Source: Bolinopsis microptera
Taxonomy: Eukaryota; Ctenophora; Tentaculata; Lobata; Bolinopsidae
NCBI RefSeq assembly: GCF_026151205.1
Contig: NC_087073.1
Span: 22,700,987-22,764,986, forward strand
Reading direction: 5' to 3'
DNA length: 64,000 bases
Shown: one piece after another, positions 5,272 through 45,800 of the stretch
How positions within the stretch are numbered: the stretch's first letter is position 1
How the letters are laid out: each line of letters begins with the position of its first letter
Program-made: the position numbers and the translations under genes
The notes under the pieces: generated by a model
Seen by the model: only the letters and a program-made list of their open reading frames with translations
Told to the model about the DNA's origin: nothing
The model's database searches: none

Positions 5272-6567
5272 GTGACACGCCTAATATAACGCCTTATATA
5301 ACTGAAACAAAAGTGGAAACAAAATAACAGTCCTCAAAGGATCCTGACAGAAATGTTTTATGATGTTGCCATTGGCATGAGCTGAATGAAAGCACGCAGT
5401 CAACATGATGTAACCAACATGTAACGAACATGTAACCAACATGTAAACATCATGAGACGAACTGCGGGTTCCTTATTTCGAGCGTGTTTAGACTGGGAAT
5501 CAAGTAATAGTCATTACCTAATGAACTAGAAAAAGAACTAAAGAATTGAAGCTGGGCTCTGAGAGGCGTGTGACTCCGCATAATTAAGTTAGAGCATGTC
5601 AATTATTGTAACCATGGCAACAGTAGGACCAGCTGATTTGGAGGGATACTTAGCACTCAACGATAAACGCTAATCTTCATTTAACGACCTCTTACTCTTA
5701 TTCATAGTCGGAGAAATACAATTTATTCTTACGTTTTCCTTTAACATATATATTCCTATAACATGTTTAATATAGGAATAATTTATTGCTTTTTTCCTCG
5801 TTGTCAGCCATCTTATGTCCGTTAATCTGTTAATTTAATAATGTACTAGTTCCTGTGAGCAGGTCAGGGCTCGTACGAGTATCTGTTATCAGGGCTCATT
5901 TATTTTTAACACCCTATTAAAACTTAAACCTAACACGGCATCACGGGGTTACAAAGGTATATTATAAAGGAGCACGCATATTTGGGATTTTTTGGTTTTA
6001 GCACTGATCCTCAGTAGATGCTAAAATTTAGGTTAAATCGGTCTGGTAAATTGTTGGAGAGCGATTTAGACATTTGCTAAGTACTAAAGATATGTTATGT
6101 GTTACATTTATTTATCTGACGAGTTGTGCAAATATGGATATCCCAAATCTAAATATCATTTTATTAAGAAAAAAATTATTGGACATTAAATTTAAAGAGA
6201 CTTGATTTTGGTCATGCTGAGAATTAAGCAAAAAATTGTAAAATACATCGATTAACAATTACTAATGAGTTGCTCAAGTATTAATTTTAAATTTACAATA
6301 ATTATATTATAGCTAAAATTGTTACCTTAATCGTATGATGTTGATTGTTCATGCTATTTGCTATGTGTAAAGTTATGTGCAAAGTGTCGACTAAATGTGT
6401 TCAAAACTTAATTGTCGAGAAATTGTGACTTAATAAACATTAATGTTCCACTTTAATCAAAACGTACGATTGAAGACCGATAATTATGCCTTGATAAAAT
6501 ATTTATAAATTAGATAAAAAATGTAGGTTCAGATCTGAAAAATAAAAACATTATTGCTTCTACACAT
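5272..6567. other. AT-rich intergenic DNA, no gene seen
   Basis: Unique AT-rich sequence between the orphan gene and the 35/36-bp array. It contains a small cluster of AACATGTAAC words (5400-5455), an X-box-like site at 5608, and TTTATT at about 6160 (AATAAA on the - strand), the nearest candidate polyadenylation signal I saw downstream of the potassium channel stop. No open frame looks like a gene. Confidence 0.7.
5608..5621. promoter_or_regulatory. X-box-like RFX site
   Basis: GTAACCATGGCAAC is an imperfect palindrome close to the RFX X-box (GTTGCCATGGCAAC type). It lies 337 bp downstream of the orphan gene's stop. Related words occur at 4729, 46641, 46662 and 58057. Function is inferred from the motif only. 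Confidence 0.35.
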
Positions 6568-6570
6568 CAA

Positions 6571-9500
6571 CAGTCCTGGCAGATTTGGCAGCCTATTACA
6601 ATCAACAGCCCTGGCAGACTTGGTAGCCTATTACAATCAACAACCCTGGCAGACTTGGTAGCCTTTTACAATCAACAACCCTGGCAGACTTGGTAGCCTA
6701 TTACAATCAACAACCCTGGCAGACTTGGTAGCCTATTACAATCAACAGTCCTGGCAGACTTGGTAGCCTATTACAATCAACAGTCCTGGCAGACTTGGTA
6801 GCCTATTACAATCAACAGTCCTGGCAGACTTGGTAGCCTATTACAAATACAATCAACAGCCCTGGCAGACTTGGTAGCCTATTACACATCAACAACCCTG
6901 GCAGACTTGGTAGCCTATTACAATCAACAGTCCTGGCAGACTTGGAAGCCTATTACAATCAACAGCCCTGGCAGACTTGGTAGCCTATTACAATCAACAG
7001 TCCTGGCAGACTTGGTAGCCTATTACAATCAACAGTCCTGGCAGACTTGGTAGCCTATTACAATCAACAGTCCTGGCAGACTTGGTAGCCTATTATAACC
7101 CTGGCAGACTTGGTAGCCTATTACACATCAACAACCCTGGCAGACTTGGTAGCCTATTACAATCAACAGTCCTGGCAGACTTGGTAGCCTATAACAATCA
7201 ACAACCCTGGAAGACTTGGTAGCCTATTAAACATCAACAGTCCTGGCAGACTTGGTAGCCTATTACAATCAACAGTCCTGGCAGACTTGGTAGCCTATTA
7301 CAACCCTGGCAGACTTGGTAGCCTATTACACATCAACAACCCTGGCAGACTTGGTAGCCTATTACACATCAACAACCCTGGCAGACTTGGTAGCCTATTA
7401 CACATCAACAACCCTGGCAGACTTGGTAGCCCATTACAATCAACAGTCCTGGCAGACTTGGTAGCCTATTACAATCAACAGTCCTGGCAGACTTGGTAGC
7501 CTATAACAATCAACAACCTTGGAAGACTTGGTAGCCTATTACACATCAACAACCCTGGCAGATTTGGTAGCCTATTACACATCAACAACCCTGGCAGACT
7601 TGGTAGCCTATTACAATCAACAACCCTGGCAGATTTGGTAGCCTATTACAATCAACAGCCCTGGCAGACTTGGTAGCCTATTACACATCAACAACCCTGG
7701 CAGACTTGGTAGCCTATTACACATCAACAACCCTGGCAGACTTGGTAGCCCATTACAATCAACAGTCCTGGCAGACTTGGTAGCCTATTACAATCAACAG
7801 TCCTGGCAGACTTGGTAGCCTATAACAATCAACAACCTTGGAAGACTTGGTAGCCTATTACACATCAACAACCCTGGCAGACTTGGTAGCCTATTACACA
7901 TCAACAACCCTGGCAGACTTGGTAGCCTATTACAATCAACAACCCTGGCAGATTTGGTAGCCTATTACAATCAACAGCCCTGGCAGACTTGGTAGCCTAT
8001 TACACATCAACAACCCTGGCAGACTTGGTAGCCTATTACAATCAACAACCCTGGCAGATTTGGTAGCCTATTACAATCAACAGCCCTGGCAGACTTGGTA
8101 GCCTATTACAATCAACAGTCCTGGCAGACTTGGTAGCCTATTACAACCCTGGCATACTTGGTAGCCTATTACACATCAACAACCCTGGCAGACTTGGTAG
8201 CCTATTACAATCAACAGTCCTGGCAGACTTGGTAGCATATAACAATCAACAACCTTGGAAGCTGAAGACTTGGTAGCCTATTACACATCAACAACCCTGG
8301 CAGACTTGGTAGCCTATTACAATCAACAACCCTGGCAGATTTGGTAGCCTATTACAATCAACAGCCCTGGCAGACTTGGTAGCCTATTACACATCAACAA
8401 CCCTGGCAGACTTGGTAGCCTATTACACATCAACAACCCTGGCAGACTTGGTAGCCTATTACAATCAACAGTCCTGGCAGACTTGGTAGCCTATAACAAT
8501 CAACAACCTTGGAAGACTTGGTAGCCTATTACACATCAACAACCCTGGCAGACTTGGTAGCCTATTACACATCAACAACCCTGGCAGACTTGGTAGCCTA
8601 TTACAATCAACAACCCTGGCAGATTTGGTAGCCTATTACAATCAACAGCCCTGGCAGACTTGGTAGCCTATTACACATCAACAACCCTGGCAGACTTGGT
8701 AGCCTATTACACATCAACAACCCTGGCAGACTTGGTAGCCTATTACAATCAACAACCCTGGCAGACTTGGTAGCCTATTACACATCAACAACCCTGGCAG
8801 ACTTGGTAGCCTATTACAATCAACAACCCTGGCAGACTTAGTAGCCTATTACAATCAACAACCCTGGCAGACTTGGTAGCCTATTACAATCAACAGCCCT
8901 GGCAGACTTGGTAGCCTATTACACATCAACAACCCTGGCAGACTTGGTAGCCTATTACAATCAACAGTCCTGGCAGACTTGGTAGCCTATAACAATCAAC
9001 AACCTTGGAAGCTGAAGACTTGGTAGCCTATTACACATCAACAACCCTGGCAGACTTGGTAGCCTATTACAATCAACAACCCTGGCAGACTTGGTAGCCT
9101 ATTACAATCAACAACCCTGGCAGATTTGGTAGCCTATTACAATCAACAGCCCTGGCAGACTTGGTAGCCTATTACACATCAACAACCCTGGCAGACTTGG
9201 TAGCCTATTACACATCAACAACCCTGGCAGACTTGGTAGCTTATTACACATCAACAGTCCTGGCAGACTTGGTAGCCTATTACAATCAACAACCCTGGCA
9301 GACTTGGTAGCCTATTACAATCAACAGCCCTGGCAGACTTGGTAGCCTATTACACATCAACAACCCTGGCAGACTTGGTAGCCTATTACAATCAACAACC
9401 CTGGCAGACTTGGTAGCCTATTACAATCAACAACCCTGGCAGACTTGGTAGCCTTTTACACATCAACAACCCTGGCAGACTTAGTAGCATATTACAATCG

Positions 9501-10430
9501 ACAGCCTTGGCAGACTTGGTAGCCTATTACACATCAACAGTCCTGGCAGACTTGGTAGCCTATTACAATCAACAACCCTGGCAGACTTGGTAGCCTATTA
9601 CACATCAACAACCCTGGCAGACTTGGTAGCCTATTACAATCAACAACCCTGGCAGACTTAGTAGCCTATTACAATCAACAACCCTGGCAGACTTGGTAGC
9701 CTATTACAATCAACAGCCCTGGCAGACTTGGTAGCCTATTACACATCAACAACCCTGGCAGACTTGGTAGCCTATTACAATCAACAGTCCTGGCAGACTT
9801 GGTAGCCTATAACAATCAACAACCTTGGAAGCTGAAGACTTGGTAGCCTATTACACATCAACAACCCTGGCAGACTTGGTAGCCTATTACAATCAACAAC
9901 CCTGGCAGACTTGGTAGCCTATTACAATCAACAACCCTGGCAGATTTGGTAGCCTATTACAATCAACAGCCCTGGCAGACTTGGTAGCCTATTACACATC
10001 AACAACCCTGGCAGACTTGGTAGCCTATTACACATCAACAACCCTGGCAGACTTGGTAGCTTATTACACATCAACAGTCCTGGCAGACTTGGTAGCCTAT
10101 TACAATCAACAACCCTGGCAGACTTGGTAGCCTATTACAATCAACAGCCCTGGCAGACTTGGTAGCCTATTACACATCAACAACCCTGGCAGACTTGGTA
10201 GCCTATTACAATCAACAACCCTGGCAGACTTGGTAGCCTATTACAATCAACAACCCTGGCAGACTTGGTAGCCTTTTACACATCAACAACCCTGGCAGAC
10301 TTAGTAGCATATTACAATCGACAGCCTTGGCAGACTTGGTAGCCTATTACACATCAACAGTCCTGGCAGACTTGGTAGCCTATTACAATCAACAGCCCTG
10401 GCAGACTTGGTAGCCTATTACACATCAACA
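6571..10430. repeat. 35/36-bp tandem array, 3' flank of the potassium channel gene
   Basis: Units contain CTGGCAGACTTGGTAGCCTA followed by TTACAATCAACAGTC (35 bp) or TTACACATCAACAACC (36 bp). About 108 copies are present. Diagnostic variants recur exactly 820 bp apart: TTAGTAGCC near 8840 and 9660, GCTGAAGACT at 9011 and 9831, TTAGTAGCAT at 9481 and 10301. A block of about 0.8 kb has therefore been duplicated in tandem. A third GCTGAAGACT lies 750 bp upstream at 8261. The right edge overlaps the last codons and stop of the channel gene on the - strand. Confidence 0.97.
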
Positions 10431-10689
10431 GCCCTTGCAGACTTGGCAGCCCAGGCTGGTCCTGCATCATTCACTACGTCCTTCATGTACGCTTCAGTAT
10501 CAAAGAAGGGTCTGTCAAGATACATCTGCCACTTTGAGCTGAGCCGCTCAGTTTCCCCCTTGTTGTTCCTCCTCTCCATTCTCTTACAGTACCGCCTGTA
10601 GTACACGTCGAACTTCTGTGATATGATAGGCAGGGGGATGGCAATGAGTGGGACTCCGCTACAAGCGCAGCACGCTCCTATCACCTTAC
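10418..10689 (-). CDS. Potassium channel, last coding exon (S6 and C-tail)
   Basis: On the - strand the sequence CCCCGACAG is followed at 10689 by GTAAGGTGATAGG, a good 3' splice site. Joined in phase to the upstream exon it gives TSTVGKVIGACCACSGV, the normal selectivity-filter-to-S6 transition. S6 has the gating bend PLP (residues 475-477 of the joined protein) where Shaker channels have PVP. A basic cytoplasmic tail of about 65 residues follows and stops at TAA (10418-10420). The last six or seven codons and the stop are made of the first degenerate unit of the neighbouring 35/36-bp array. No tetrapeptide PDZ ligand is seen at the end. Confidence 0.85.
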
Positions 10690-11334
10690 CTGTCGGGGAG
10701 GTGCTGTTAGCTTTATAATATATAATTATATATATAACACTCTTATAACAACTAAACAATGAACATTTAGATGGTGCAAAATTCAACTCTGGGAAGTAGC
10801 TTGCTTTTCGATCACTTTTTCGTGACACAGCGTGATAAATATATTTTCAATAATTTAGATTGTTCTAACCTACAGTTGAGGTGGGCACCATGTCACCGTA
10901 CCCCACCGTTGTTATGGTAACAAGACTCCACCACATACAGCTAAACACACTATCAAACTTACCTACAGTTGAGGTGGGCACCATGTCACCGTACCCCACG
11001 GTTGTTATGGTAACAAGACTCCACCACATACAGCTAAACACACTATCAAACTTACCTACAGTTGAGGTGGGCACCATGTCACCGTACCCCACGGTTGTTA
11101 TGGTAACAAGACTCCACCACATACAGCTAAACACACTATCAAACTTACCTACAGTTGAGGTGGGCACCATGTCACCGTACCCCACGGTTGTTATGGTAAC
11201 AAGACTCCACCACATACAGCTAAACACACTATCAAACTTACCTACAGTTGAGGTGGGCACCATGTCACCGTACCCCACCGTTGTTATGGTAACAAGACTC
11301 CACCACATACAGCTAAACACACTATCAAACTTAC
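10690..11334 (-). other. Intron or alternative coding segment between P-loop and S6 exons
   Basis: If the first 5' splice site (AG|GTAAGT at 11335/11334) is used, this 645-bp stretch is an intron. It holds five further in-frame copies of the P-loop unit (10869-11333) and then 180 bp of AT-rich DNA up to the S6 acceptor. If splicing uses a later copy, part of it is coding. The last copy ends in a weaker GTTAGA donor at 10869. Confidence 0.7.
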
Positions 11335-11426
11335 CTACAGTTGAGGTGGGCACCATGTCACCGTACCCCACGGTTGTTATGGTAACAAGACTCCACCACA
11401 TACAGCTAAACACACTATCAAACTTG
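10869..11426 (-). repeat. Six in-frame tandem copies of the potassium channel pore loop
   Basis: A 93-bp unit (31 codons) is repeated six times, starting at 10869, 10962, 11055, 11148, 11241 and 11334. Each copy encodes the pore helix (FDSVFSCMWWSLV), the filter TVGYGD and MVPTSTVG. Each of the five internal junctions has CTGTAG|GTAAGT on the - strand, a strong 5' splice site preceded by an AG that could also serve as a 3' splice site. Copies differ at one silent-looking base (CCACCG or CCACGG on +), so they are not identical. Read straight through, the protein would have 612 residues before the splice. Confidence 0.93.
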
Positions 11427-12703
11427 GCGGACATGTCTGCATCCTCTGTCATGTTCAGAGCAACAGAGCAGTTCTCATCCAGCTGTAGGAATATGTTGTA
11501 GGAGCTGGAAGTGTTGGTCATAATGTTCCTCATGAACCTCACTGAAGTGCTGTTTGGACTGAGGTCCAGTAACCTTATGTTGGGGAATATGGTGCAGTTA
11601 TCCAGCACTAGAGAATAGGTCCCTGTGGTATTGACAAGGTGTCTGATGGTGGAGTCTGCGATGGTGTTTATGAGCTGAGTGTAAATTATCTTGTCTGATG
11701 AAGAGTTTGGAACACCATGGTGGTCTAAGCGGAAATCAAACTCCACCCAGAACATGATGGTGGCATAAGTCACTACGCAGAAGAAGATGAATATGAAGAT
11801 GACGAGGAGATCCGAGAAGCTGTTCTTGACGGCCATGCCAAGAGAGAAAAATAGCGCGTTATACCTGGCCAAGTTAAACACATGTACCATTCTGAATAGT
11901 TTGATCATCCTGAGACAGGCCATGACCCGGTAGATGTTGTAGATCCTGTGCTGGTCGTACTCCCCTCCTGACTGCTCTTCAAGGTACGCTTCTAGCTCAA
12001 ACAGTATCAGGGTCACGAAGTAGGACAGAACCACAAATGCGTCCATTATTGCCATGAACGACTTTGCAAACTTCTTCCTGTCCTCTGACCAATAAAACCT
12101 CATGATGAGAAAGGTGGTGATCCACAAAGTGCAGAGCGTCTCTACTGACATTATTATTTTTAAAGGAGTGTCTAGGTTCTTCCACGAGCCTGATAACTGT
12201 TGGAGTCTCTCCTGTGGGTTTTGGTCCCTAGCATTGGGCTGTATGATCTGCTCGCACACTACCGCCATCACGAACAGTATTGTCACGGCCAGGTCTATTA
12301 TCTGTATCCGCAACAGTTTCTGATAGTGCATGTACTCTGTGGGCTTCTGACTGAGTATTCGTTTTAGCCCCTTCACTTTGGGGTTGGTGGACTGCATCAC
12401 CCCGTTCTTGGTTCTGTGGTTTCTGATCTTGAAGAAGACCACTTCTCTGTTGAAAATCTCTTCGCTGACATTAGGGGGTTTCCTGAGCACTCCCCCTGAT
12501 TGAAAGTAGTAGAGAATTGAATCGAAAGACTGTCTGTCTCTGTAGAAGCAGTACATATTACGCTCCTTGTTGTAGTAAGTTTCCTTCTCATTAGAGCCCA
12601 GCAGTGTACCAGGGAACTGATTCAGGGTGCTGTGCCGGGTTTTGAAGATGTGTCCCGATATGTTTAGGTAGCAGAATACTGGGTCCTCGCAGATCTCGTC
12701 CAT
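11335..12703 (-). CDS. Voltage-gated potassium channel, Shaker-like, main exon (T1 to pore)
   Basis: This exon encodes residues 1-457 of a six-helix Kv alpha subunit. The T1 tetramerisation domain lies at about 9-96, with the Shaker-type motif FYRDRQSFDSILYYFQSGG and no HX5CX20CC zinc motif, which points to the Kv1/Shaker class. Predicted helices are S1 131-153, S2 182-203, S3 217-236, S4 255-276 and S5 296-320. S4 is weakly charged: R265, K268 and R271 at three-residue spacing, then H274. The S5-pore linker is about 105 residues, far longer than usual, with seven N-glycosylation sequons (N333, 358, 369, 384, 397, 411, 417) and two cysteines. The filter TVGYGD is at 444-449. The exon ends in phase 1 at AG|GTAAGT. 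Joined to 10418-10689 it gives 546 residues. The ATG is preceded by TGTGCAG|GA, so an upstream exon is possible. Confidence 0.92.
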
Positions 12704-12746
12704 TCCTGCACATTATATATATACATTACATGTTAAAATAAGAGAA

Positions 12747-12950
12747 TTATATACGCTAATTTAACTGCGTATAATTATATACGCTAATTTAACTGCGTAT
12801 AATTATATACGCTAATTTAACTGCGTATAATTATATACGCTAATTTAATTGCGTATAATTATATACGCTAATTTAACTGCGTATAATTATATACGCTAAT
12901 TTAACTGCATATAATTATATACGCTAATCTAACTGCGTATAATGCGATTA
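12747..12950. repeat. 28-bp tandem repeat, about 7 copies
   Basis: The unit contains ATATACGCTAATTTAACTGC, with periodic ACGCTAATTT at 12753, 12781 and 12809. The last, diverged copy merges into the left arm of the palindromic element at 12925, so the array looks like an expansion of that element's end. It lies just upstream of the potassium channel start. Confidence 0.9.
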
Positions 12951-13108
12951 CACTATTAATTATTGTATCAATTTGCACGAGGAGCAGCCGAGTGCAAATT
13001 GATACAATAATTGCACGAGGCGAAGCCGAGTTCGATTATTGCAGTTATTTCACGAGGCGCAGCCGAGTGTAATAACTGGTGTAATCGCATTATACGAACA
13101 GTTAGATT
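12925..13108. mobile_element. Palindromic MITE-like element with three nested hairpins
   Basis: The outer arms 12936-12953 (CGTATAATGCGATTACAC) and 13079-13096 are perfect inverted repeats. Similarity extends outward through CTAACTG to about 12925 and 13108. Inside are three hairpins with different stems but near-identical loops of the type GAGG(A/C)G(C/A)AGCCGAG: 12958-13012 (21-bp perfect stem), about 13004-13042, and about 13041-13079. No coding capacity. This is a non-autonomous foldback or MITE-like structure; the family is not identified. Confidence 0.75.
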
Positions 13109-27836: not shown

Positions 27837-30800
27837 CACCCAACTAAACCGTAGACTCTGAAGAGATACTAACTCAACTAAACCGTATAATAAGCTCTGA
27901 AGAGATACTAACTCAACTAAACAGTATAATAAGCTCTGAAGAGACACTACCTCAACTAAACAGTATAGCAGGCTCTGAAGAGATACTAACTCAACTAAAC
28001 CGTATAATAAGCTCTGAAGAGATACTAACTCAACTAAACAGTATAATAAGCTCTGAAGAGACACTACCTCAACTAAACAGTATAGCAGGCTCTGAAGAGA
28101 TACTAACTCAACTAAACCGTATAATAAGCTCTGAAGAGATACTAACTCAACTAAACCGTATAATAAGCTCTGAAGAGACACTACCTCAACTAAACAGTAT
28201 AGCAGGCTCTGAAGAGATACTAACTCAACTAAACCGTATAATAAGCTCTGAAGAGATACTAACTCAACTAAACCGTATAATAAGCTCTGAAGAGACACTA
28301 CCTCAACTAAACAGTATAGCAGGCTCTGAAGAGATACTAACTCAACTAAACCGTATAATAAGCTCTGAAGAGACACTACCTCAACTAAACAGTATAGCAG
28401 GCTCTGAAGAGATACTAACTCAACTAAACCGTATAATAAGCTCTGAAGAGATACTAACTCAACTAAACCGTATAATAAGCTCTGAAGAGATACTAACTCA
28501 ACTAAACAGTATAGCAGGCTCTGAAGAGATACTAACTCAACTAAACCGTATAATAAGCTCTGAAGAGATACTAACTTAACTAAACCGTATAATAAGCTCT
28601 GAAGAGATACTAACTCAACTAAACCGTATAATAAGCTCTGAAGAGACACTACCTCAACTAAACAGTATAGCAGGCTCTGAGAGATACTAACTCAACTAAA
28701 CCGTATAATAAGCTCTGAAGAGATACTAACTCAACTAAACCGTATAATAAGCTCTGAGAGATACTAACTCAACTAAACAGTATAGCAGGCTCTGAAGAGA
28801 TACTAACTCAACTAAACAGTATAGCAGGCTCTGAAGAGATACTAACTCAACTAAACAGTATAGCAGGCTCTGAAGAGATACTAACTCAACTAAACAGTAT
28901 AGCAGGCTCTGAAGAGATACTAACCCAACTAAACCGTAGACTCTGAAGAGATACTAACTCAACTAAACCGTATAATAAGCTCTGAAGAGACACTACCTCA
29001 ACTAAACAGTATAGCAGGCTCTGAAGAGATACTAACTCAACTAAACCGTATAATAAGCTCTGAAGAGACACTACCTCAACTAAACAGTATAGCAGGCTCT
29101 GAAGAGATACTAACTCAACTAAACCGTATAATAAGCTCTGAAGAGATACTAACTCAACTAAACAGTATAGCAGGCTCTGAAGAGATACTAACTCAACTAA
29201 ACAGTATAGCAGGCTCTGAAGAGATACTAACTCAACTAAACCGTATAATAAGCTCTGAAGAGACACTACCTCAACTAAACAGTATAGCAGGCTCTGAAGA
29301 GATACTAACTCAACTAAACCGTATAATAAGCTCTGAAGAGATACTAACTCAACTAAACAGTATAGCAGGCTCTGAAGAGATACTAACTCAACTAAACAGT
29401 ATAGCAGGCTCTGAAGAGATACTAACTCAACTAAACCGTATAATAAGCTCTGAAGAGACACTACCTCAACTAAACAGTATAGCAGGCTCTGAAGAGATAC
29501 TAACTCAACTAAACAGTATAGCAGGCTCTGAAGAGATACTAACTCAACTAAACAGTATAGCAGGCTCTGAAGAGATACTAACTCAACTAAACAGTATAGC
29601 AGGCTCTGAAGAGATACTAACTCAACTAAACCGTATAATAAGCTCTGAAGAGACACTACCTCAACTAAACAGTATAGCAGGCTCTGAAGAGATACTAACT
29701 CAACTAAACAGTATAGCAGGCTCTGAAGAGATACTAACTCAACTAAACCGTATAATAAGCTCTGAAGAGACACTACCTAAACTAAACAGTATAGCAGGCT
29801 CTGAAGAGATACTAACTCAACTAAACAGTATAGCAGGCTCTGAAGAGATACTAACTCAACTAAACCGTATAATAAGCTCTGAAGAGATACTAACTCAACT
29901 AAACCGTATGATAAGCTCTGAAGAGATACTAACTCAACTAAACAGTATAGCAGGCTCTGAAGAGATACTAACTCAACTAAACCGTATAATAAGCTCTGAA
30001 GAGATACTAACTCAACTAAACCGTATAATAAGTTCTGAAGAGATACTAACTCAACTAAACTGTATTATAAGTTCTGAAGAGATACTAACTCAACTAAACC
30101 GTATAATAAGCTCTGAAGAGATACTAACTCAACTAAACCGTATAATAAGCTCTGAAGAGATACTAACTCAACTAAACCGTACAATAAGCTCTGAAGAGAT
30201 ACTAACTCAACTAAACCGTATAATAAGCTCTGAAGAGATACTAACTCAACTAAACCGTACAATAAGTTCTGAAGAGATACTAACTCAACTAAACCGTATA
30301 ATAAGCTCTGAAGAGACACTAACTCAACTAAACCGTATAATAAGCTCTGAAGAGATACTAACTCAACTTAACCGTATAATAAGCTCTGAAGATATACTAA
30401 CTCAACTAAACCGTATAATAAGCTCTGAAGAGATACTAACTCAACTAAACAGTATAATAAGCTCTGAAGAGATACTAACTCAACTAAACCGTATAATAAG
30501 CTCTGAAGAGATACTAACTCAACTAAACCGTACAATAAGCTCTGAAGAGATACTAACTCAACTAAACCGTATAATAAGCTCTGAAGAGATACTAACTCAA
30601 CTAAACCGTATAATAAGCTCTGAAGAGATACTAACTCAACTAAACCGTACAATAAGCTCTGAAGAGATACTAACTCAACTAAACCGTATAATAAGCTCTG
30701 AAGAGATACTAACTCAACTAAACTGTATAATAAGTTCTGAAGAGATACTAACTCAACTAAACCGTATAATAAGCTCTGAAGAGACACTAACTCAACTAAA

Positions 30801-33800
30801 CCGTATAATAAGCTCTGAAGAGATACTAACTCAACTTAACCGTATAATAAGCTCTGAAGATATACTAACTCAACTAAACCGTATAATAAGCTCTGAAGAG
30901 ATACTAACTCAACTAAACAGTATAATAAGCTCTGAAGAGATACTAACTCAACTAAACCGAATAATAAGCTCTCAAGAGATACTAACTCAACTAAACCGTA
31001 TAATAAGCTCTGAAGAGATACTACCTCAACTAAACCGTATAATAAGCTCTGAAGAGATACTAACTCAACTAAACCGTATAATAAGCTCTGAAGAGATACT
31101 AACTCAACTAAACCGTATGATAAGCTCTGAAGAGATACTAACTCAACTAAACCGTATAATAAGCTCTGAAGAGATACTAAACTCAACTAAACCGTATAAT
31201 AAGCTCTGAAGAGATACTAACTCAACTAAACCGTATAATAAGCTCTGAAGAGATACTAACTCGACTAAACCGTATAATAAGCTCTGAAGAGATACTAACT
31301 CGACTAAACCGTATAATAAGCTCTGAAGAGACACTAACTCAACTAAACCGTATAATAAGCTCTGAAGAGATACTAACTCAACTAAACCGTATAATAAGCT
31401 CTGAGAGATACTAACTCAACTAAACCGTACAATAAGCTCTGAAGAGATACTAACTCAACTAAACCGTATAATAAGCTCTAAAGAGATACTAACTCAACTA
31501 AACCGTATAGCAGGCTCTGAAGAGATACTAACTCAACTAAACCGTATAATAAGCTCTAAAGAGATACTACCTCAACTTAACCGTATAGCAGGCTCTGAAG
31601 AGATACTAACTCAACTTAACCGTATAATAAGCTCTGAAGATATACTAACTCAACTAAACCGTATAATAAGCTCTGAAGAGATACTAACTCAACTAAACCG
31701 TATAATAAGCTCTGAAGAGATACTAACTCAACTAAACCGAATAATAAGCTCTCAAGAGATACTAACTCAACTAAACCGTATAATAAGCTCTGAAGAGACA
31801 CTAACTCAACTAAACCGTATAATAAGCTCTAAAGAGATACTAACTCAACTAAACCGTATAATAAGCTCTGAAGAGATACTTACTCAACTAAACCGTATAA
31901 TAAGCTCTGAAGAGACACTACCTCAACTAAACCGTATAATAAGCTCTGAAGAGATACTAACTCAACTAAACCGTATAATAAGCTCTGAAGAGATACTAAC
32001 TCAACTAAACCGTATAATAAGCTCTGAAGAGATACTAACTCAACTAAACCGTATAATAAGCTCTGAAGAGATACTAACTCAACTAAACCGTATAATAAGC
32101 TCTGAAGAGATACTAACTCAACTAAACCGTATAATAAGCTCTGAAGAGATACTAACTCAACTAAACCGTATAATAAGCTCTGAAGAGATACTAACTCAAC
32201 TAAACCGTATAATAAGCTCTGAAGAGATACTAACCCAACTAAACCGTATAATAAGCTCTGAAGAGATACTAACTCAACTAAACCGTATAATAAGCTCTGA
32301 AGAGATACTAACTCAACTAAACCGTATAATAAGCTCTGAAGAGATACTAACTCAACTAAACCGTATAATAAGCTCTGAAGAGATACTAACTCAACTAAAC
32401 CGTATAATAAGCTCTGAAGAGATACTAACTCAACTAAACCGTATAATAAGCTCTGAAGAGATACTAACTCAACTAAACCGTATAATAAGCTCTGAAGAGA
32501 TACTAACTCAACTAAACCGTATAATAAGCTCTGAAGAGATACTAACTCAACTAAACCGTATAATAAGCTCTGAAGAGATACTAACTCAACTAAACCGTAT
32601 AATAAGCTCTGAAGAGATACTAACTCAACTAAACCGTATAATAAGCTCTGAAGAGATACTAACTCAACTAAACCGTATAATAAGCTCTGAAGAGATACTA
32701 ACTCAACTAAACCGTATAATAAGCTCTGAAGAGATACTAACTCAACTAAACCGTATAATAAGCTCTGAAGAGATACTAACTCAACTAAACCGTATAATAA
32801 GCTCTGAAGAGATACTAACTCAACTAAACCGTATAATAAGCTCTGAAGAGATACTAACTCAACTAAACCGTATAATAAGCTCTGAAGAGATACTAACTCA
32901 ACTAAACCGTATAATAAGCTCTGAAGAGATACTAACTCAACTAAACCGTATAATAAGCTCTGAAGAGATACTAACTCAACTAAACCGTATAATAAGCTCT
33001 GAAGAGATACTAACTCAACTAAACCGTATAATAAGCTCTGAAGAGATACTAACTCAACTAAACCGTATAATAAGCTCTGAAGAGATACTAACTCAACTAA
33101 ACCGTATAATAAGCTCTGAAGAGATACTAACTCAACTAAACCGTATAATAAGCTCTGAAGAGATACTAACTCAACTAAACCGTATAATAAGCTCTGAAGA
33201 GATACTAACTCAACTAAACGTATATAAGCTCTGAAGAGATACTAACTCAACTAAACCGTATAATAAGCTCTGAAGAGATACTAACTCAACTAAACCGTAT
33301 AATAAGCTCTGAAGAGATACTAACTCAACTAAACCGTATAATAAGCTCTGAAGAGATACTAACTCAACTAAACCGTATAATAAGCTCTGAAGAGATACTA
33401 ACTCAACTAAACCGTATAATAAGCTCTGAAGAGATACTAACTAAACTAAACCGTATAATAAGCTCTGAAGAGATACTAACTCAACTAAACCGTATAGCAA
33501 GCTCTGAAGAGATACTAACTCAACTAAACCGTATAATAAGCTCTGAAGAGATACTAACTCAAGTAAACCGTATAATAAGCTCTGAAGAGATACTAACTCA
33601 ACTGAACCGTATAATAAGCTCTGAAGAGATACTAACTCAACTAAACCGTATAATAAGCTCTGAAGAGATACTAACTCAACTAAACCGTATAATAAGCTCT
33701 GAGAGATACTAACTCAACTAAACCGTATAATAAGCTCTGAAGAGATACTAACTCAACTAAACCGTATAATAAGCTCTGAAGAGATACTAACTCGACTAAA

Positions 33801-36800
33801 CCGTATAATAAGCCTCTGAAGAGATACTAACTCAACTAAACGTATATAAGCTCTGAAGAGATACTAACTCAACTAAACCGTATAATAAGCTCTGAAGAGA
33901 TACTAACTCAACTAAACCGTATAATAAGCTCTGAAGAGATACTAACTCAACTAAACCGTATAATAAGCTCTGAAGAGATACTAACTCAACTAAACCGTAT
34001 AATAAGCTCTGAAGAGATACTAACTCAACTAAACCGTATGATAAGCTCTGAAGAGATACTAACTAAACTAAACCGTATAATAAGCTCTGAAGAGATACTA
34101 ACTCAACTAAACCGTATGATAAGCTCTGAAGAGATACTAACTCAACTAAACGGTATGATAAGCTCTGAAGAGATACTAACTCAACTAAACTGTATAATAA
34201 GCTCTGAAGAGATACTAACTAAACTAAACCGTATAATAAGCTCTGAAGAGATACTAACTCAACTAAACCGTATAATAAGCTCTGAAGAGATACTAACTCA
34301 ACTAAACCGTATAATAAGCTCTGAAGAGATACTGACTCAACTAAACCGTATAATAAGCTCTGAAGAGATACTAACTAAACTAAAACCGTATAATAAGCTC
34401 TGAAGAGATACTAACTCAACTAAACCGTATAGCAAGCTCTGAAGAGATACTAACTCAACTAAACCGTAAATAAGCTCTGAAGAGATACTAACTTCAAGTA
34501 AACCGTATAATAAGCTCTGAAGAGATACTAACTCAACTGAACCGTATAATAAGCTCTGAAGAGATACTAACTCAACTAACCCGTATAATAAGCTCTGAAG
34601 AGATACTAACTCAACTAAAACCGTATAATAAGCTCTGAAGATATACTAACTCAACTAAACCGTATAATAAGCTCTGAAGAGATACTAACTCAACTAAACC
34701 GTATAATAAGCTCTAAGAGATACTACTCGACTAAACCGTATAATAAGCTCTGAAGAGATACTAACTCAACTAAACGTATAATAAGCTCTGAAGAGACACT
34801 AACTCAACTAAACCGTATAATAAGCTCTGAAGAGACACTAACTCAACTAAACCGTATAATAAGACTGAAGAGACACTAACTCAACTAAACCGTATAATAA
34901 GCTCTGAAGAGATACTAACTCAACTAAACCGTATAATAAGCTCTGAAGAGATACTAACTCAACCTAAACCGTATAATAAGCTCTGAAGAGATACTAACTC
35001 AACCTGAACCGTATAATAAGCTCTGAAGAGATACTAGCTCAACTAAACCGTATAATAAGCTCTGAGAGATACTAACTCAACTAAACCGTATAATAAGCTC
35101 TGAAGAGACACTACCTCAACTAAACCGTATAATAAGCTCTGAAGAGACACTACCTCAACTAAACAGTATAGCAGGCTCTGAAGAGACACTACCTCAACTA
35201 AACCGTATAATAAGCTCTGAAGAGATACTAACTCAACTAAACCGTATAATAAGCTCTGAAGAGATACTAACTCAACTAAACCGTATAATAAAGCTCTGAA
35301 AGATACTAACTCAACTAAACCGTATAATAGCTCTGAAGAGATACTAACTCAACTAAACCGTATAATAAGCACTAAAGAGATACTAACTCAACTAAACCGT
35401 ATAAAAGCTCTGAAGAGACACTACCTCAACTAAACCGTATAATAAGCTCTGAAGATATACTACTCAACTAAACCGTATAATAAGCTCTGAAGAGATACAA
35501 CTCAACTAAACCGTATAATAAGCTCTGAAGAGATACTAACTCAACTAAACCGTATAATAAGCTCTGAAGAGATACTAACTCAACTAAACCGTATAATAAG
35601 CTCTGAAGAGATACTAACTCAACTAAACCGTATAATAAGCTCTGAAGAGATACTAACTCAACTAAACCGTATAATAAGCTCTGAAGAGATACTAACTCAA
35701 CTAAACCGTATAGCAGGCTCTGAAGAGATACTAACTCAACTAAACCGTATAGTAAGCTCTGAAGAGATACTAACTCAACTAAACCGTATAATAAGCTCTG
35801 AAGAGATACTAACTCGACTAAACCGTATAATAAGCTCTGAAGAGATACTAACTCAACTAAACCGTATAATAAGCTCTGAAGAGATACTAACTCAACTGAA
35901 CCGTATAATAAGCTCTGAAGAGATACTAACTCAACTAAACCGTATAATAAGCTCTGAAGAGATACTAACTCAACTAAACCCGTATAATAAGCTCTGAAGA
36001 GATACTAACTCAACTAAACCGTATAATAGCTCTGAAGAGATACTAACTCAACTAAACCGTATAATAAGCTCTGAAGAGACACTACCTCAACTTAACCGTA
36101 TAGCAGGCTCTGAAGAGATACTAACTCAACTAAACAGTATGATAAGCTCTAAAGAGATACTAACTCAACTAAACCGTATAATAAGCTCTGAAGAGATACT
36201 AACTCAACTAAACCGTATAATAAGCTCTGAAGAGATACTAACTCAACTAAACCGTATAATAAGCTCTGAAGAGATACTAACTCAACTAAACCGTATAATA
36301 AGCTCTGAAGAGATACTAACTCAACTAAACCGTATAATAAGCTCTGAAGAGATACTAACTCAACTAAACCGTATAATAAGCTCTGAAGAGATACTAACTC
36401 AACTAAACCGTATAATAAGCTCTGAAGAGATACTAACTCAACTAAACCGTATAATAAGCTCTGAAGAGATACTACTCAACTAAACCGTATAATAAGCTCT
36501 GAAGAGATACTAACTCAACTAAACCGTATAATAAGCTCTGAAGAGATACTAACTCAACTAAACCGTATAATAAGCTCTGAAGAGATACTACTCAACTAAA
36601 CCGTATAATAAGCTCTGAAGAGATACTAACTCAACTAAACCGTATAATAAGCTCTGAAGAGATACTAACTCAACTAAACCGTATAATAAGCTCTGAAGAG
36701 ATACTAACTCAACTAAACCGTATAATAAGCTCTGAAGAGATACTAACTCAACTAAACCGTATAATAAGCTCTAAAGAGATACTAACTCAACTAAACCGTA

Positions 36801-39800
36801 TAATAAGCTCTGAAGAGATACTAACTCAACTAAACCGTATAATAAGCACTGAAGAGATACTAACTCAACTAAACCGTATAATAAGCTCTGAAGAGACACT
36901 ACCTCAACTAAACCGTATAATAAGCTCTGAAGAGATACTAACTCAACTAAACCGTATAATAAGCTCTGAAGAGATACTAACTCAACTAAACCGTATAATA
37001 AGCTCTGAAGAGATACTAACTCAACTAAACCGTATAATAAGCTCTGAAGAGATACTAACTCAACTAAACCGTATAATAAGCTCTGAAGAGATACTAACTC
37101 AACTAAACCGTATAATAAGCTCTGAAGAGATACTAACTCAACTAAACCGTATAATAAGCTCTGAAGAGATACTAACTCAACTAAACCGTATAATAAGCTC
37201 TGAAGAGATACTAACTCAACTAAACCGTATAATAAGCTCTGAAGAGATACTAACTCAACTAAACCGTATAGCAGGCTCTGAAGAGATACTAACTCAACTA
37301 AACCGTATAATAAGCTCTGAAGAGATACTAACTCAACTAAACCGTATAATAAGCTCTGAAGAGATACTAACTCAACTAAACCGTATAATAAGCTCTGAAG
37401 AGATACTAACTCAACTAAACCGTATAATAAGCTCTGAAGAGATACTAACTCAACTAAACCGTATAATAAGCTCTGAAGAGATACTAACTCAACTAAACCG
37501 TATAATAAGCTCTGAAGAGATACTAACTCAACTAAACCGTATAATAAGCTCTGAAGAGATACTAACTCAACTAAACCGTATAATAAGCTCTGAAGAGATA
37601 CTAACTCAACTAAACCGTATAATAAGCTCTGAAGAGATACTAACTCAACTAAACCGTATAATAAGCTCTGAAGAGATACTAACTCAACTAAACCGTATAT
37701 AAGCTCTGAAGAGATACTAACTCAACTAAACCGTATAATAAGCTCTGAAGAGATACTAACTCAACTAAACCGTATAATAAGCTCTGAAGAGATACTAACT
37801 CAACTAAACCGTATAATAAGCTCTGAAGAGATACTAACTCAACTAAACCGTATAATAAGCTCTGAAGAGATACTAACTCAACTAAACCGTATAATAAGCT
37901 CTGAAGAGATACTAACTCAACTAAACCGTATAATAAGCTCTGAAGAGATACTAACTCAACTAAACCGTATAATAAGCTCTGAAGAGATACTAACTCAACT
38001 AAACCGTATAATAAGCTCTGAAGAGATACTAACTCAACTAAACCGTATAATAAGCTCTGAAGAGATACTAACTCAACTAAACCGTATAATAAGCTCTGAA
38101 GAGATACTAACTCAACTAAACCGTATAATAAGCTCTGAAGAGATACTAACTCAACTAAACCGTATAATAAGCTCTGAAGAGATACTAACTCAACTAAACC
38201 GTATAATAAGCTCTGAAGAGATACTAACTCAACTAAACCGTATAATAAGCTCTGAAGAGATACTAACTCAACTAAACCGTATAATAAGCTCTGAAGAGAT
38301 ACTAACTCAACTAAACCGTATAATAAGCTCTGAAGAGATACTAACTCAACTAAACCGTATAATAAGCTCTGAAGAGATACTAACTCAACTAAACCGTATA
38401 ATAAGCTCTGAAGAGATACTAACTCAACTAAACCGTATAATAAGCTCTGAAGAGATACTAACTCAACTAAACCGTATAATAAGCTCTGAAGAGATACTAA
38501 CTCAACTAAACCGTATAATAAGCTCTGAAGAGATACTAACTCAACTAAACCGTATAATAAGCTCTGAAGAGATACTAACTCAACTAAACCGTATAATAAG
38601 CTCTGAAGAGATACTAACTCAACTAAACCGTATAATAAGCTCTGAAGAGATACTAACTCGACTAAACCGTATAATAAGCTCTGAAGAGATACTAACTCAA
38701 CTAAACGTATAATAAGCTCTGAAGAGATACTAACTCAACTAAACCGTATAATAAGCTCTGAAGAGATACTAACTCAACTAAACCGTATAATAAGCTCTGA
38801 AGAGATACTAACTCAACTAAACCGTATAATAAGTTCTGAAGAGATACTAACTCAACTAAACCGTATAATAAGCTCTGAAGAGACACTAACTCAACTAAAC
38901 CGTATAATAAGCTCTGAAGAGATACTAACTCAACTAAACCGTATATAAGCTCTGAAGAGATACTAACTCAACTAAACCGTATAATAAGCTCTGAAGAGAT
39001 ACTAACTCGACTAAACCGTATAATAAGCTCTGAAGAGATACTAACTCAACTAAACGTATAATAAGCTCTGAAGAGATCTAACTCAACTAAACCGTATAAT
39101 AAGCTCTGAAGAGATACTAACTCAACTAAACGTAAAATAAGCTCTGAAGAGATACTAACTCAACTAACCGTATAATAAGCTCTGAAGAGATACTAACTCA
39201 ACTAAACCGTATAATAAGCTCTGAAGAGATACTAACTCAACTAAACCGTATAATAAGCTCTGAAGAGATACTAACTCAACTAAACCGTATAATAAGCTCT
39301 GAAGAGATACTAACTCAACTAAACCGTATAATAGCTCTGAAGAGATACTAACTCAACTAAACCGTATAATAAGCTCTGAAGAGATACTAACTCAACTAAA
39401 CCGTCTAATAAGCTCTGAAGAGATACTAACTCAACTAAACCGTATAATAAGCTCTGAAGAGATACTAACTCAAACTAAACCGTATAATAAGCTCTGAAGA
39501 GATACTAACTCAACTAACCGTATAATAAGCTCTGAAGAGATACTAACTCAACTAAACCGTATAATAAGCTCTGAAGAGATACAAACTCAACTAAACCGTA
39601 TAATAAGCTCTGAAGAGATACTAACTCAACTAAACCGTCTAATAAGCTCTGAAGAGATACTAACTCAACTAAACCGTATAATAAGCTCTGAAGAGATACT
39701 AACTCAACTAAACCGTATAATAAGCTCTGAAGAGATACTAACTCAACTAAAACTGTATAATAAGCTCTGAAGAGATACTAACTCAACTAAACCGTATAAT

Positions 39801-42800
39801 AAGCTCTGAAGAGATAAAACCTAAAACTAAACCGCCCCTAAAAAGCCCTAAGAATACAAACCTCAACAAAAACCTTTAATAAGCTCTGAAGAGATACAAC
39901 TCAACTAAACCGTTTAAAAAGGGTTTGGGAATGAACTAACTCAACAAAACCGTAAAAAAGCCCCAAAAGAGTCCCAAAATCAATAAACCGTAAAATAGCT
40001 CTAAAGAGATACTAACTCAACTAAACCGTATAGCGGCTTGAAGAGATACAACCCCAACTAAACGAAAAATTAACTCTGAAGAGATACAAACTAAAACAAA
40101 AACCCGAAATAATAAGCCCCTGAAGGATACAACTCGACAAAAACCGTTTTATAAGTCTGAAAGAAATAACTAAATTTAAAACCCGTATAATAAGCTCTGA
40201 AGAATACAAAACTAAAACTAAACCCCGAAAAATAAGCTCTAAAGAGATACAAACTAAAATTAAAACCGTTTAATAAGCTCGAAGAGAAACAATAAAATGA
40301 ACCGTATAAAAGCTCTGAAGGAGATACAAACTCAACAAAACCGTATAAAAAGCTCTAAAGAGAAAAAAAAACTCAACAAAACCGGGTTAAAAAGCTCTGA
40401 AGAGCCCTCAAACCCCCCAATTTAAACCGAATAGCAGGCTTTTTAAGAGATACTAACCCCAACTAAAACAGTAGGGATAAGCTCTAAAGGATCCCTAACT
40501 CAACAAAAACCGTATAATAAGCTCTAAAGAGATACAAAATCAATTTAAACCGTTAATAAGCTCTGAAAAATTTTAAAAAACTCAACAAAACCCCCGGTTA
40601 AAAAAGCCTGAAGAGATACTAACTCAACAAAACCCGTAAATTTAAGCTCTAAAGGAAACAAAACTAAACAAAACCGGTTTAATAAGCTTGAAGAGATTCA
40701 AACCCCAAAAACAAAACCCGTAAAAATAAGCTCTGAAGAGATATTAACTCAACAAAACCGTTAATAACTCTGAAGAGATACTAACTAAAACAAAACCTTA
40801 TAATAACCCTTGAAAAAGGATACTAAAACTAACAAACCGTTTTAAAAGCTCTGAAGAAAAAACAAAACTCGACAAAAACCGAAACAATAAGCTTGAAGAA
40901 AAAAAAACCCTCAACTAAACCCGTATAAAGCTCTAAAGAGTTTTACAAAACTAAATTTAAACCGAAAAATTAAGCCAAAATTACCCTCCCTAAAACAAAA
41001 ACGTAAAAGCGGGCTCTAAAGGGGACCTCCCTTTAAACAAACCGAATAAAACCCTAAAGAAAATCCCTAAACTAAAGTATAAAAAAGCTCTGAAAGTACT
41101 AACTAAACTTAACTGTATAAAAACCTCTAAAAGAATACTAATCAATTTAAACCGTAAAATTAAGCTTTTAAGAGAAACAAAACTCAAAAAAACCAAAATA
41201 AAAAAAGCTCAAAAAGAGTTTACTAACTCAACAAAAACCCGTTAAAAGCTCTGGGGATACAAACCCAAACAAAACCGTATAAAAAGCCCCAAAGAGATAC
41301 AAAACCAATTAAACCGAATAAAAGCTCTAAAGGGAGTTTACTAATTTCAACAAAAACCGTAAAATAACTCTAAAAGAGATACAAACTCTTTTAAAACCCG
41401 AAAAAATAACTTAAAAAATTTTCAATAAAACTAAACCCGTAAAATAAGCTCTGAAGAGATACTAACTCAACTAAACCGTATAATAAGCTCTGAAGAGATA
41501 CTAACTCAACTAAACCGTATAATAAGCTCTGAAGAGACACTAACTCAACTAAACCGTATAATAAGCTCTGAAGAGATACTAACTCAACTAAACCGTATAA
41601 TAAGCTCTGAAGAGATACTAACTCAACTAAACCGTATAATAAGCTCTGAAGAGATACTAACTCAACTAAACCGTATAATAAGCTCTGAAGAGATACTAAC
41701 TCAACTAAACCGTATAATAAGCTCTGAAGAGATACTAACTCAACTAAACCGTATAATAAGCTCTGAAGAGATACTAACTCAACTAAACCGTATATAAGCT
41801 CTGAAGAGATACTAACTCAACTAAACCGTATAGCAGGCTCTGAAGAGATACTAACTCAACTTAACCGTATAATAAGCTCTGAAGAGATACTAACTCAACT
41901 AAACCGTATAATAAGCTCTGAAGAGATACTAACTCGACTAAACCGTATAATAAGCTCTGAAGAGATACTAACTCAATTAAACCGTATAATAAGCTCTGAA
42001 GAGATACTAACTCAACTGAACCGTATAATAAGCTCTGAAGAGATACTAACTCAACTAAACCGTATAATAAGCTCTGAAGAGATACTAACTCAACTAAACC
42101 GTATAATAAGCTCTGAAGAGACACTACCTCAACTTAAACAGTATAGCAGGCTCTGAAGAGACACTAACTCAACTTAACCGTATAATAAGCTCTGAAGAGA
42201 TACTAACTCAACTAAACCGTATAATAAGCTCTGAAGAGATACTAACTCAATTAAACCGTATAATAAGCTCTGAAGAGATACTAACTCAACTGAACCGTAT
42301 AATAAGCTCTGAAGAGATACTAACTCAACTGAACCGTATAATAAGCTCTGAAGAGATACTACTCAACTAAACCGTATAATAAGCTCTGAAGAGATACTAA
42401 CTCAACTAAACTGTATAATAAGCTCTGAAGAGATACTAACTCAACTAAACCGTATAATAAGCTCTGAAGAGATACTAACTCAACTAAACCGTATAATAAG
42501 CTCTAAAGAGATACTAACTCAACTAAACCGTATAATAAGCTCTGAAGAGATACTAACTCAACTAAACCGTATAATAAGCACTAAAGAGATACTAACTCAA
42601 TTAAACCGTATAATAAGCTCTGAAGAGATACTAACTCAACTAAACCGTATAATAAGCTCTGAAGAGATACTAACTCAACTAAACCGTATAATAAGCTCTG
42701 AAGAGATACTAACTCAACTAAACCGTATAATAAGCTCTGAAGAGATACTAACTCAACTAAACTGTATAATAAGCTCTGAAGAGATACTAACTCAACTAAA

Positions 42801-45800
42801 CCGTATAATAAGCTCTGAAGAGATACTAACTCAACTAAACCGTATAATAAGCTCTGAAGAGATACTAACTCAACTAAACCGTATAATAAGCTCTGAAGAG
42901 ATACTAACTCAACTAAACCGTATGATAAGCCCCGAAGAGATACTAACTCAACTAAACCGTATAATAAGCTCTGAAGAGATACTAACTCAACTAAACGGTA
43001 TGATAAGCTCTGAAGAGATACTAACTCAACTAAACCGTATAATAAGCTCTGAAGAGACACTAACTCAACTAAACCGTATAATAAGCTCTGAAGAGATACT
43101 AACTCAACTAAACCGTATAATAAGCTCTGAAGAGATACTAACTCAACTAAACCGTATAATAAGCTCTGAAGAGATACTAACTCAACTAAACCGTATAATA
43201 AGCTCTGAAGAGATACTAACTCAACTAAACCGTATAATAAGCTCTGAAGACATACTAACTCAACTAAACCGTATAGCAGGCTCTGAAGAGATACTAACTC
43301 AACTAAACCGTATAATAAGCTCTGAAGAGATACTAACTTAACTAAACCGTATAATAAGCTCTGAAGAGATACTAACTCAACTAAACCGTATAATAAGCTC
43401 TGAAGAGATACTAACTCAACTAAACCGTATAATAAGCTCTGAAGAGATACTAACTCAACTAAACCGTATAATAAGCTCTGAAGAGATACTAACTCAACTA
43501 AACCGTATAGCAGGCTCTGAAGAGATACTAACTCAACTTAACCGTATAATAAGCTCTGAAGAGATACTAACTCAACTAAACCGTATAATAAGCTCTGAAG
43601 AGATACTAACTCGACTAAACCGTATAATAAGCTCTGAAGAGATACTAACTCAATTAAACCGTATAATAAGCTCTGAAGAGATACTAACTCAACTGAACCG
43701 TATAATAAGCTCTGAAGAGATACTAACTCAACTAAACCGTATAATAAGCTCTGAAGAGATACTAACTCAACTAAACCGTATAATAAGCTCTGAAGAGACA
43801 CTACCTCAACTAAACAGTATAGCAGGCTCTGAAGAGACACTAACTCAACTTAACCGTATAATAAGCTCTGAAGAGATACTAACTCAACTAAACCGTATAA
43901 TAAGCTCTGAAGAGATACTAACTCAATTAAACCGTATAATAAGCTCTGAAGAGATACTAACTCAACTGAACCGTATAATAAGCTCTGAAGAGATACTAAC
44001 TCAACTGAACCGTATAATAAGCTCTGAAGAGATACTAACTCAACTAAACCGTATAATAAGCTCTGAAGAGATACTAACTCAACTAAACTGTATAATAAGC
44101 TCTGAAGAGATACTAACTCAACTAAACCGTATAATAAGCTCTGAAGAGATACTAACTCAACTAAACCGTATAATAAGCTCTGAAGAGATACTAACTCAAC
44201 TAAACCGTATAATAAGCTCTGAAGAGATACTAACTCAACTAAACCGTATAATAAGCACTAAGAGATACTAACTCAACTAAACCGTATAATAAGCTCTGAA
44301 GAGATACTAACTCAACTAAACCGTATAATAAGCTCTGAAGAGATACTAACTCAACTAAACCGTATAATAAGCTCTGAAGAGATACTAACTCAACTAAACC
44401 GTATAATAAGCTCTGAAGAGATACTAACTCAACTAAACCGTATAATAAGCTCTGAAGAGATACTAACTCAACTAAACCGTATAATAAGCTCTGAAGAGAT
44501 ACTAACTCAACTAAACCGTATAATAAGCTCTGAAGAGATACTAACTCAACTAAACCGTATAATAAGCTCTGAAGAGATACTAACTCAACTAAACCGTATA
44601 ATAAGCTCTGAAGAGATACTAACTCAACTAAACCGTATAATAAGCTCTGAAGAGATACTAACTCAACTAAACCGTATAATAAGCTCTGAAGAGATACTAA
44701 CTCAACTAAACCGTATAATAAGCTCTGAAGAGATACTAACTCAACTAAACCGTATAATAAGCTCTGAAGAGATACTAACTCAACTAAACCGTATAATAAG
44801 CTCTGAAGAGATACTAACTCAACTAAACCGTATAATAAGCTCTGAAGAGATACTAACTCAACTAAACCGTATAATAAGCTCTGAAGAGATACTAACTCAA
44901 CTAAACCGTATAGCAGGCTCTGAAGAGATACTAACTCAACTAAACCGTATAATAAGCTCTGAAGAGATACTAACTCAACTAAACCGTATAATAAGCTCTG
45001 AAGAGATACTAACTCAACTAAACCGTATAATAAGCTCTGAAGAGATACTAACTCAACTAAACCGTATATAAGCTCTGAAGAGATACTAACTCAACTAAAC
45101 CGTATAATAAGCTCTGAAGAGATACTAACTCAACTAAACCGTATAATAAGCTCTGAAGAGATACTAACTCAACTAAACCGTATAATAAGCTCTGAAGAGA
45201 TACTAACTCAACTAAACCGTATAGCAAGCTCTGAAGAGATACTAACTCAACTAAACCGTATAATAAGCTCTGAAGAGATACTAACTCAACTAAACCGTAT
45301 AATAAGCTCTGAAGAGATACTAACTCAACTAAACCGTATAATAAGCTCTGAAGAGATACTAACTCAACTAAACCGTATAATAAGCTCTGAAGAGATACTA
45401 ACTCAACTAAACCGTATAATAAGCTCTGAAGAGATACTAACTCAACTAAACTGTATAATAAGCTCTGAAGAGATACTAACTCAACTAAACCGTATAGCAG
45501 GCTCTGAAGAGATACTAACTCAACTAAACCGTATAATAAGCTCTGAAGAGATACTAACTCAACTAAACCGTATGATAAGCTCTGAAGAGATACTAACTCA
45601 ACTAAACCGTATAGCAGGCTCTGAAGAGATACTAACTCAACTAAACCGTATAATAAGCTCTGAAGAGATACTAACCCAACTAAACCGTATAATAAGCTCT
45701 GAAGAGATACTAACTCAACTAAACCGTATAATAAGCTCTGAAGAGATACTTACTCAACTAAACCGTATAATAAGCTCTGAAGAGATACTAACTCAACTAA

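Follow-up and report, generated by a model that had tools for sequence, protein, structure and literature searches.

The window, that is, the whole stretch of 64,000 nucleotides that was analyzed (C2:22,700,987–22,764,986 of the Bolinopsis microptera assembly; 264,652,675 bases, 232 contigs), carries on its minus strand a potassium channel gene with a tandem array at the end of its pore-coding exon. Exon 1 (12703–11335, minus strand), whose open frame begins with the ATG at 12703, encodes a T1/BTB domain, S1–S5, a long S5-P turret and the first P-loop copy, and ends in TAG| (phase 1). If the first donor is used, with splicing predicted from the relatives, it would be followed by a 645-nt intron (11334–10690) that ends in GCTAACAGCACCTCCCCGACAG. 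Exon 2 (10689–10418), for which P0002, P0005 and P0135 contain matching sequence, starts with GTAAGG directly after the acceptor CCCCGACAG|, encodes S6 (PLPIISQKF) and the C-terminus, and runs to ..AAKSARAVDV and the stop at 10418.

The domain and structure matches agree with the original prediction of a potassium channel. BTB_2 was matched at 3.3e-18 (66.3 bits vs. a cut-off of 21.4), and Ion_trans and Ion_trans_2, scored on the six-copy frame, at 3.4e-47 and 9.1e-50 (Pfam). With the one-copy exon as query, the best PDB sequence matches were Shaker chains (9oic, 7sip and others; 3.3e-41), and the TVGYGD filter is present in the translation. Having a T1/BTB_2 domain, a six-helix domain and TVGYGD, the gene is, judged by its translation, a ctenophore Shaker-type Kv channel. 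It has in common with Shaker-superfamily Kv channels what we take to be the T1 domain, the S1–S4 voltage sensor, the TVGYGD filter and the PxP motif in S6. Unlike them, it has an S5-P turret of ∼100 residues (by eye) and a repeated P-loop coding unit. The gene is single-copy in the genome, and the next paralog is 36% identical. P0002 (535 aa) is 94% identical to the channel, and Mnemiopsis leidyi P0005 (ACHWQZ_G012918), which is among the closest database proteins, is 79% identical. In the turret of another relative, P0003, a 15-residue insertion TEAARLTAAQVHLPV was observed in a sequence otherwise closely matching P0002, which lacks it; a polymorphism, a frame read-through or a small intron is suggested.

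The 93-bp array

Analysis of the 64-kb window with TRF yielded a period of 93 bp, 6.0 copies and 99% matches at 10868–11425 (minus strand). The predicted array is real, and its original coordinates (10869–11426) were shifted by one base. Each unit (AAGTTT...CTGTAGGT on the minus strand) is made up of 91 bp of the pore exon, encoding the pore helix and the TVGYGD filter, and the GT of the donor. All six copies encode KFDSVFSCMWWSLVTITTVGYGDMVPTSTVG, and the frame is open across them, as had been claimed for a 93-bp in-frame unit. In mRNA order, copy 1 (11425–11333), which is expected in the normal mRNA, has TAG|GTAAGT with its GT at 11334–11333. Copies 2 (11332–11240), 3 (11239–11147), 4 (11146–11054) and 5 (11053–10961) have GTAAGT donors, and copy 6 (10960–10868) has TAG|GTTAGA, which is weaker by computed U1 pairing.

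A copy-by-copy comparison revealed a sole difference, at unit position 54, which reads C,G,C,C,C,G (G in copies 2 and 6). The variant is synonymous (ACC or ACG, both Thr). At this single variable site copy 1 is identical to the inner copies 3–5, and copy 6 carries the variant of copy 2. AG|GT stands at the end of 6/6 units. The AAG that opens each unit follows directly on the donor GT of the unit before it, so that the junctions of copies 1–5 read CTGTAG|GTAAGT; copy 6 adjoins unique intron sequence and reads CTGTAG|GTTAGA. These are the six candidate donors originally proposed, five of one kind and one of the other.

The repetition is far beyond chance. At lag 93, exact self-matches run for up to 278 bases, against a maximum of 8 in 200 dinucleotide shuffles of 10418–12703; at any lag of 20–199, the longest match in 20 such shuffles was 12. 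All matches of the unit in the genome (6/6; 264.65 Mb, 232 contigs) fall within the array. A genome search with PF07885 gave 113 matches (150/166 candidates scored), among which inspection by eye found no other place where at least three fall inside 1 kb. Pairs of matches 384 bases apart were observed at two places on C1, near 9,639,189 and 9,711,087. At 41 other K-channel loci, some of which overlap, TRF detected a two-copy repeat with a period of at least 40 in 3 and a three-copy repeat of such period in none. Proteins with repeated P-loops were not found among the best 120 of 1114 matches (7985 candidates sharing most words scored), nor among the best 120 of 958 matches in a second search.

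Age of the intron

P0002 has one P-loop and is joined exactly at the array boundary (...PTSTVG|KVIGACC). Mnemiopsis P0005, an annotated protein whose joint comes from the annotation, has one P-loop and the same joint (...PASTVG|KIIGACC). P0003, P0004, P0006, P0008 and P0012 likewise have one P-loop, and past the boundary they read GGN and then AAR or GAR, the expected read-through of a GTAAG or GTGAG donor. P0007, also with one P-loop, reads GGN and then stop, as GTTAG would give. These donor-like codons are read from protein, where codon third bases are not visible. We read the frames that run past the boundary (P0003, P0004, P0006, P0007, P0008 and P0012) as genomic. The exon-2 frame P0135 appears with intron read-through (..TARPAG|KVIG), and for it and for P0003 (exon 1) the longest contig is 2132 bases in each case, which suggests that one genomic contig holds both exons, separated by no more than about 480 bases (hand subtraction). 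The single-copy state in the relatives comes partly from short contigs, which can collapse arrays, and it has supportive weight.

Within the same genome, the paralogs L010, L016 and L046 have, as read from their sequence, a donor that agrees in codon and phase, and a fourth, L031, possibly shares the intron position. In L010, the closest paralog, the intron (about 2483–2567 of that locus) reads as 85 nt long with a GTTAGT donor. By these comparisons with the relatives' joints and the paralog introns, the array is younger than the intron; it would multiply an old donor and add no new intron position.

Donor choice and predicted products

Joining donor 1 to the acceptor CCCCGACAG| predicts a protein of 546 residues, the single-P-loop product originally proposed. 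Donors 2–6 would use introns of 552, 459, 366, 273 and 180 nt, and the predicted products have 577, 608, 639, 670 and 701 residues and contain 2 to 6 TVGYGD motifs. Pairing with what we take to be the U1 5′-end sequence was computed as −10.5 kcal/mol for donors 1–5 and −5.5 kcal/mol for donor 6; donor 6 is not equivalent to donors 1–5. Among the 186 GTs at 10400–12760, donors 1–5 rank directly below one other GT. Exon 2 begins with GTAAGG after CAG (10680–10692), so that AG|GTAAG is read at the real acceptor and again at the spliced junction; in its genomic context this GTAAGG is the top U1 match of the 186.

Two arguments were dropped. The first took the internal acceptors to be weak and thereby spoke against splicing within the array, but pyrimidine content is 0.62 for the internal CTGTAG acceptors and the real acceptor alike, and the AG-free stretch alone differs (54 vs. 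12 nt). The second took a dead copy-6 donor as proof of donor 1 use, but GTTAGA need not be dead, because L010 has GTTAGT there.

We consider it probable that the donor end of the pore exon was caught up in a young minisatellite expansion, and that donor 1 is mainly used and the one-P-loop, 546-residue channel is made. Tandem duplication, followed by copy-number change and homogenization, would have multiplied the donor; the spliceosome would mainly pick the first one, and copies 2–6 would leave with the enlarged 645-nt intron. Initial cutting at donor 1 would lead, by whatever route through the internal AG|GT sites, to one and the same one-P-loop message. With initial cutting at a later donor, at least two P-loops would stay unless the array is respliced, and each retained copy would add 31 residues to what would be a minor or aberrant product. 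Donor 1 is expected to be dominant because the amphioxus mirages, ABCA7 and CBS 844ins68, in the available parts of the papers discussed below, behave in this way. We infer donor 1 use and the 546-residue product on this ground, and the alternative mentioned in the original prediction, that the extra copies are intronic, is counted as right, with splicing presumed to proceed from the first donor.

Donor 1 dominance has points against it, among them the GTTAG-type donor of L010 and the equal pyrimidine content of the internal and real acceptors. Donors 1–5 are identical in sequence and in U1 pairing. When identical donors compete, the one nearest the acceptor is often favored, which here would give five P-loops. 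Short introns seem workable in this family because L010 reads with an 85-nt intron, and the acceptor distance falls to 273 nt at donor 5. A reading that we regard as possible but unlikely builds in part on these points: later donors would be substantially used, giving messages with two to six P-loops, the additional ones lying between the first filter and S6, and products that would be mostly non-functional or dominant-negative, so that the array would lower channel output or mark a recent, perhaps heterozygous, loss-of-function allele. All six donors give open frames (546 to 701 residues), and the near identity of the copies suggests an array so young that selection has had no time to act on it. 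As far as the available sections report, ABCA7 shows one-unit retention and splicing that changes with VNTR length (PMC5954066), and 66% of the human repeat-driven intron modifications also have a transcript with the repeat kept in the exon (PMC2812944); both count against donor 1 dominance. Against substantial use of later donors, RT-PCR on the amphioxus mirages suggested that regular splicing was undisturbed (PMC3087553, in the part available), and the reading frame is intact elsewhere. No high-identity match over a copy-copy junction was found among the best 120 of 1114 matches or among the best 120 of 958, of which P0135–P0137 were examined, an absence that weighs little because the database was reduced by clustering at 90% and 93-bp repeats collapse in assemblies of short reads. 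In proteins with additional P-loops, several hydrophobic pore helices would come to lie between the filter and S6, and a normal pore would be unlikely.

It is improbable, in our estimate, that the array acts as a length-variable splice rheostat, in which identical competing donors would give graded messages with one to six P-loops, copy number, perhaps differing between individuals or cells, would set the amount of functional channel, and some long forms would be stable proteins with stacked pore loops.

We hold it quite improbable that one or a few true copies were expanded or homogenized by consensus and polishing. The available part of PMC10232365 describes a B. microptera assembly made with wtdbg on PacBio data with Illumina/pilon polishing (k-mer size about 254 Mb, 13 chromosome-scale scaffolds, Iso-Seq and RNA-seq in the annotation). 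If this is the assembly used here, such polishing can level out differences between repeat copies, and the copy number of a long-read consensus can be some units off. The array, however, is 558 bp, short vs. long reads, and longer arrays (18.5 kb and 4 kb) are present in the window; because arrays of up to 18.5 kb should put 558 bp within reach of the same reads, an artefact becomes less likely. The interleaved variant (C,G,C,C,C,G) is also unlike simple stuttering of one copy, and a second, single-copy haplotype of the locus was not found in the 232 contigs.

Intron gain in progress under the Rogers AGGT model, the reading first offered for this array, is rejected as hardly credible: TAG|GT is present in each unit, splicing between neighbors would remove exactly 93 nt, and a 24-bp AGGT tandem unit spanned by an intron is mentioned for fission yeast in the accessible text of PMC4974935, but the model places a new intron where relatives have none, whereas the P0002 and P0005 joints and the introns of three paralogs indicate one at this codon and phase that predates the array, and the AG|GT of the unit is the old exon-intron boundary and not an exonic proto-splice site.

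Tandem repeats around the gene and at other exon-intron boundaries

TRF arrays cover 45,021/64,000 bases of the window (70%), whose end lies ∼0.26 Mb from the end of C2. In 3-kb samples, TRF coverage had a mean of 37% and a median of 17% near chromosome ends (15 samples: 13 at about 0.25 Mb, and two at 0.18 and 0.43 Mb from the ends), vs. a mean of 16% and a median of 3% in chromosome interiors (20 samples). The enrichment is modest (one-sided Mann-Whitney p 0.033), and the tandem-repeat fraction was ≤0.15 in 7/15 end samples and 14/20 interior samples.

A 35/36-bp minisatellite of about 110 copies (TRF 109.9) occupies 6561–10451 (minus strand). Its first unit, GCTGCCAAGTCTGCAAGGGCTGTTGATGTGTAATAG, is the last codons of the channel with the stop, and its commonest later unit differs from the first at three bases. 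The C-terminal AKSxRAxxV is common to the channel, Mnemiopsis P0005 and P0002, and since it is kept in those two proteins this array most likely grew from coding sequence. Two arrays in one gene, both anchored in coding sequence, speak for a minisatellite process acting locally and not for selection in favor of additional pore loops. The pair suggests that coding sequence can be the starting point of minisatellites in this region, here on two occasions in a single gene, and it is relevant to the birth of such arrays and to their tolerance by genes.

Other features were observed in the window. An 18.5-kb array (27856–46373; 39-bp unit, 474 copies) has long open frames on both strands, up to 758 aa among those listed, because 39 bp is 13 codons; evidence of a gene is lacking there. 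A 336-aa open frame at 52011–53021 resembles a retroelement remnant by its weak zf-RVT match (22 bits vs. a cut-off of 27.5). A 35-bp array (53687–55086) adjoins a cysteine-rich region (55087–58250) whose translations resemble what are presumably VWD/TIL-type exons. Upstream of the channel gene, at 12973–13073, the repeat TTGCACGAGGCGCAGCCGAGTGCAAT.. (TRF period 37), with an interior that looks self-complementary, is perhaps a small mobile-element end. Neither Rfam (at gathering thresholds) nor a tRNA scan found a match in the window.

Among the papers listed in searches of the open-licence literature, no case of boundary-spanning minisatellites in ctenophores was found, and in the available parts of PMC11184263 and PMC12221973 nothing was found on tandem repeats. 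The comparisons that follow refer to those parts of each cited paper that were available. The closest likeness is to the amphioxus 'mirages' (Adh3; globins BflGb6 and BflGb9), minisatellite-like duplications across an exon-intron boundary with units of 150–160 bp (two haplotypes, of 6 and 3 units), AG/GT splice signals in many units and 81–100% copy identity in BflGb6 (PMC3087553). As in the mirages, the ctenophore array spans the boundary, which is fixed by relatives and paralogs, its units carry a splice signal, and its copies are similar; unit length and copy number are comparable. Mirages are also expected to have homogenized copies, with the cluster edges escaping homogenization; the one variable site of the ctenophore array groups copy 1 with copies 3–5 and copy 6 with copy 2. 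Unlike the mirages, it lies in a ctenophore host and on the donor side, with 91/93 bases exonic, and its unit is divisible by three and open, so that a retained unit would add a pore helix and filter.

In human ABCA7, a 25-bp VNTR includes the splice donor of an exon, and the first GT is the canonical donor (PMC5954066). There the units are intronic and one retained unit shifts the frame, whereas retention in the ctenophore gene would keep the frame and extend a core domain. A 31-bp VNTR of human CBS spans an exon-intron boundary (c.1444_1467+7), and in CBS 844ins68 an intron/exon junction is duplicated and normal mRNA is still made (PMC2630376). Internal tandem repeats in human duplicated genes include minisatellite expansions at exon-intron boundaries that alter splicing (PMC2812944); they vary between recent paralogs and involve novel introns, whereas the ctenophore gene is single-copy and its intron appears old. 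The fission yeast genes SPOG_01682 and SOCG_00815, cited in PMC4974935, resemble the ctenophore array in having tandem AGGT units (24 bp) and an intron that spans copies; their unit is described as exonic and in a context of intron gain, in contrast to the old ctenophore intron.

These comparisons suggest that (i) the ABCA7, CBS and other human boundary repeats take the class beyond amphioxus; (ii) boundary-spanning minisatellites, known in amphioxus and humans, now have a very clean ctenophore case; and (iii) specific to the ctenophore array are an in-frame unit that encodes a pore helix and filter in full, together with five identical tandem donors. The array can be regarded as a natural experiment on the choice of the spliceosome among identical donors placed at 93-nt steps, with the number of P-loops per message, direct from a long cDNA read, as the readout of donor choice.
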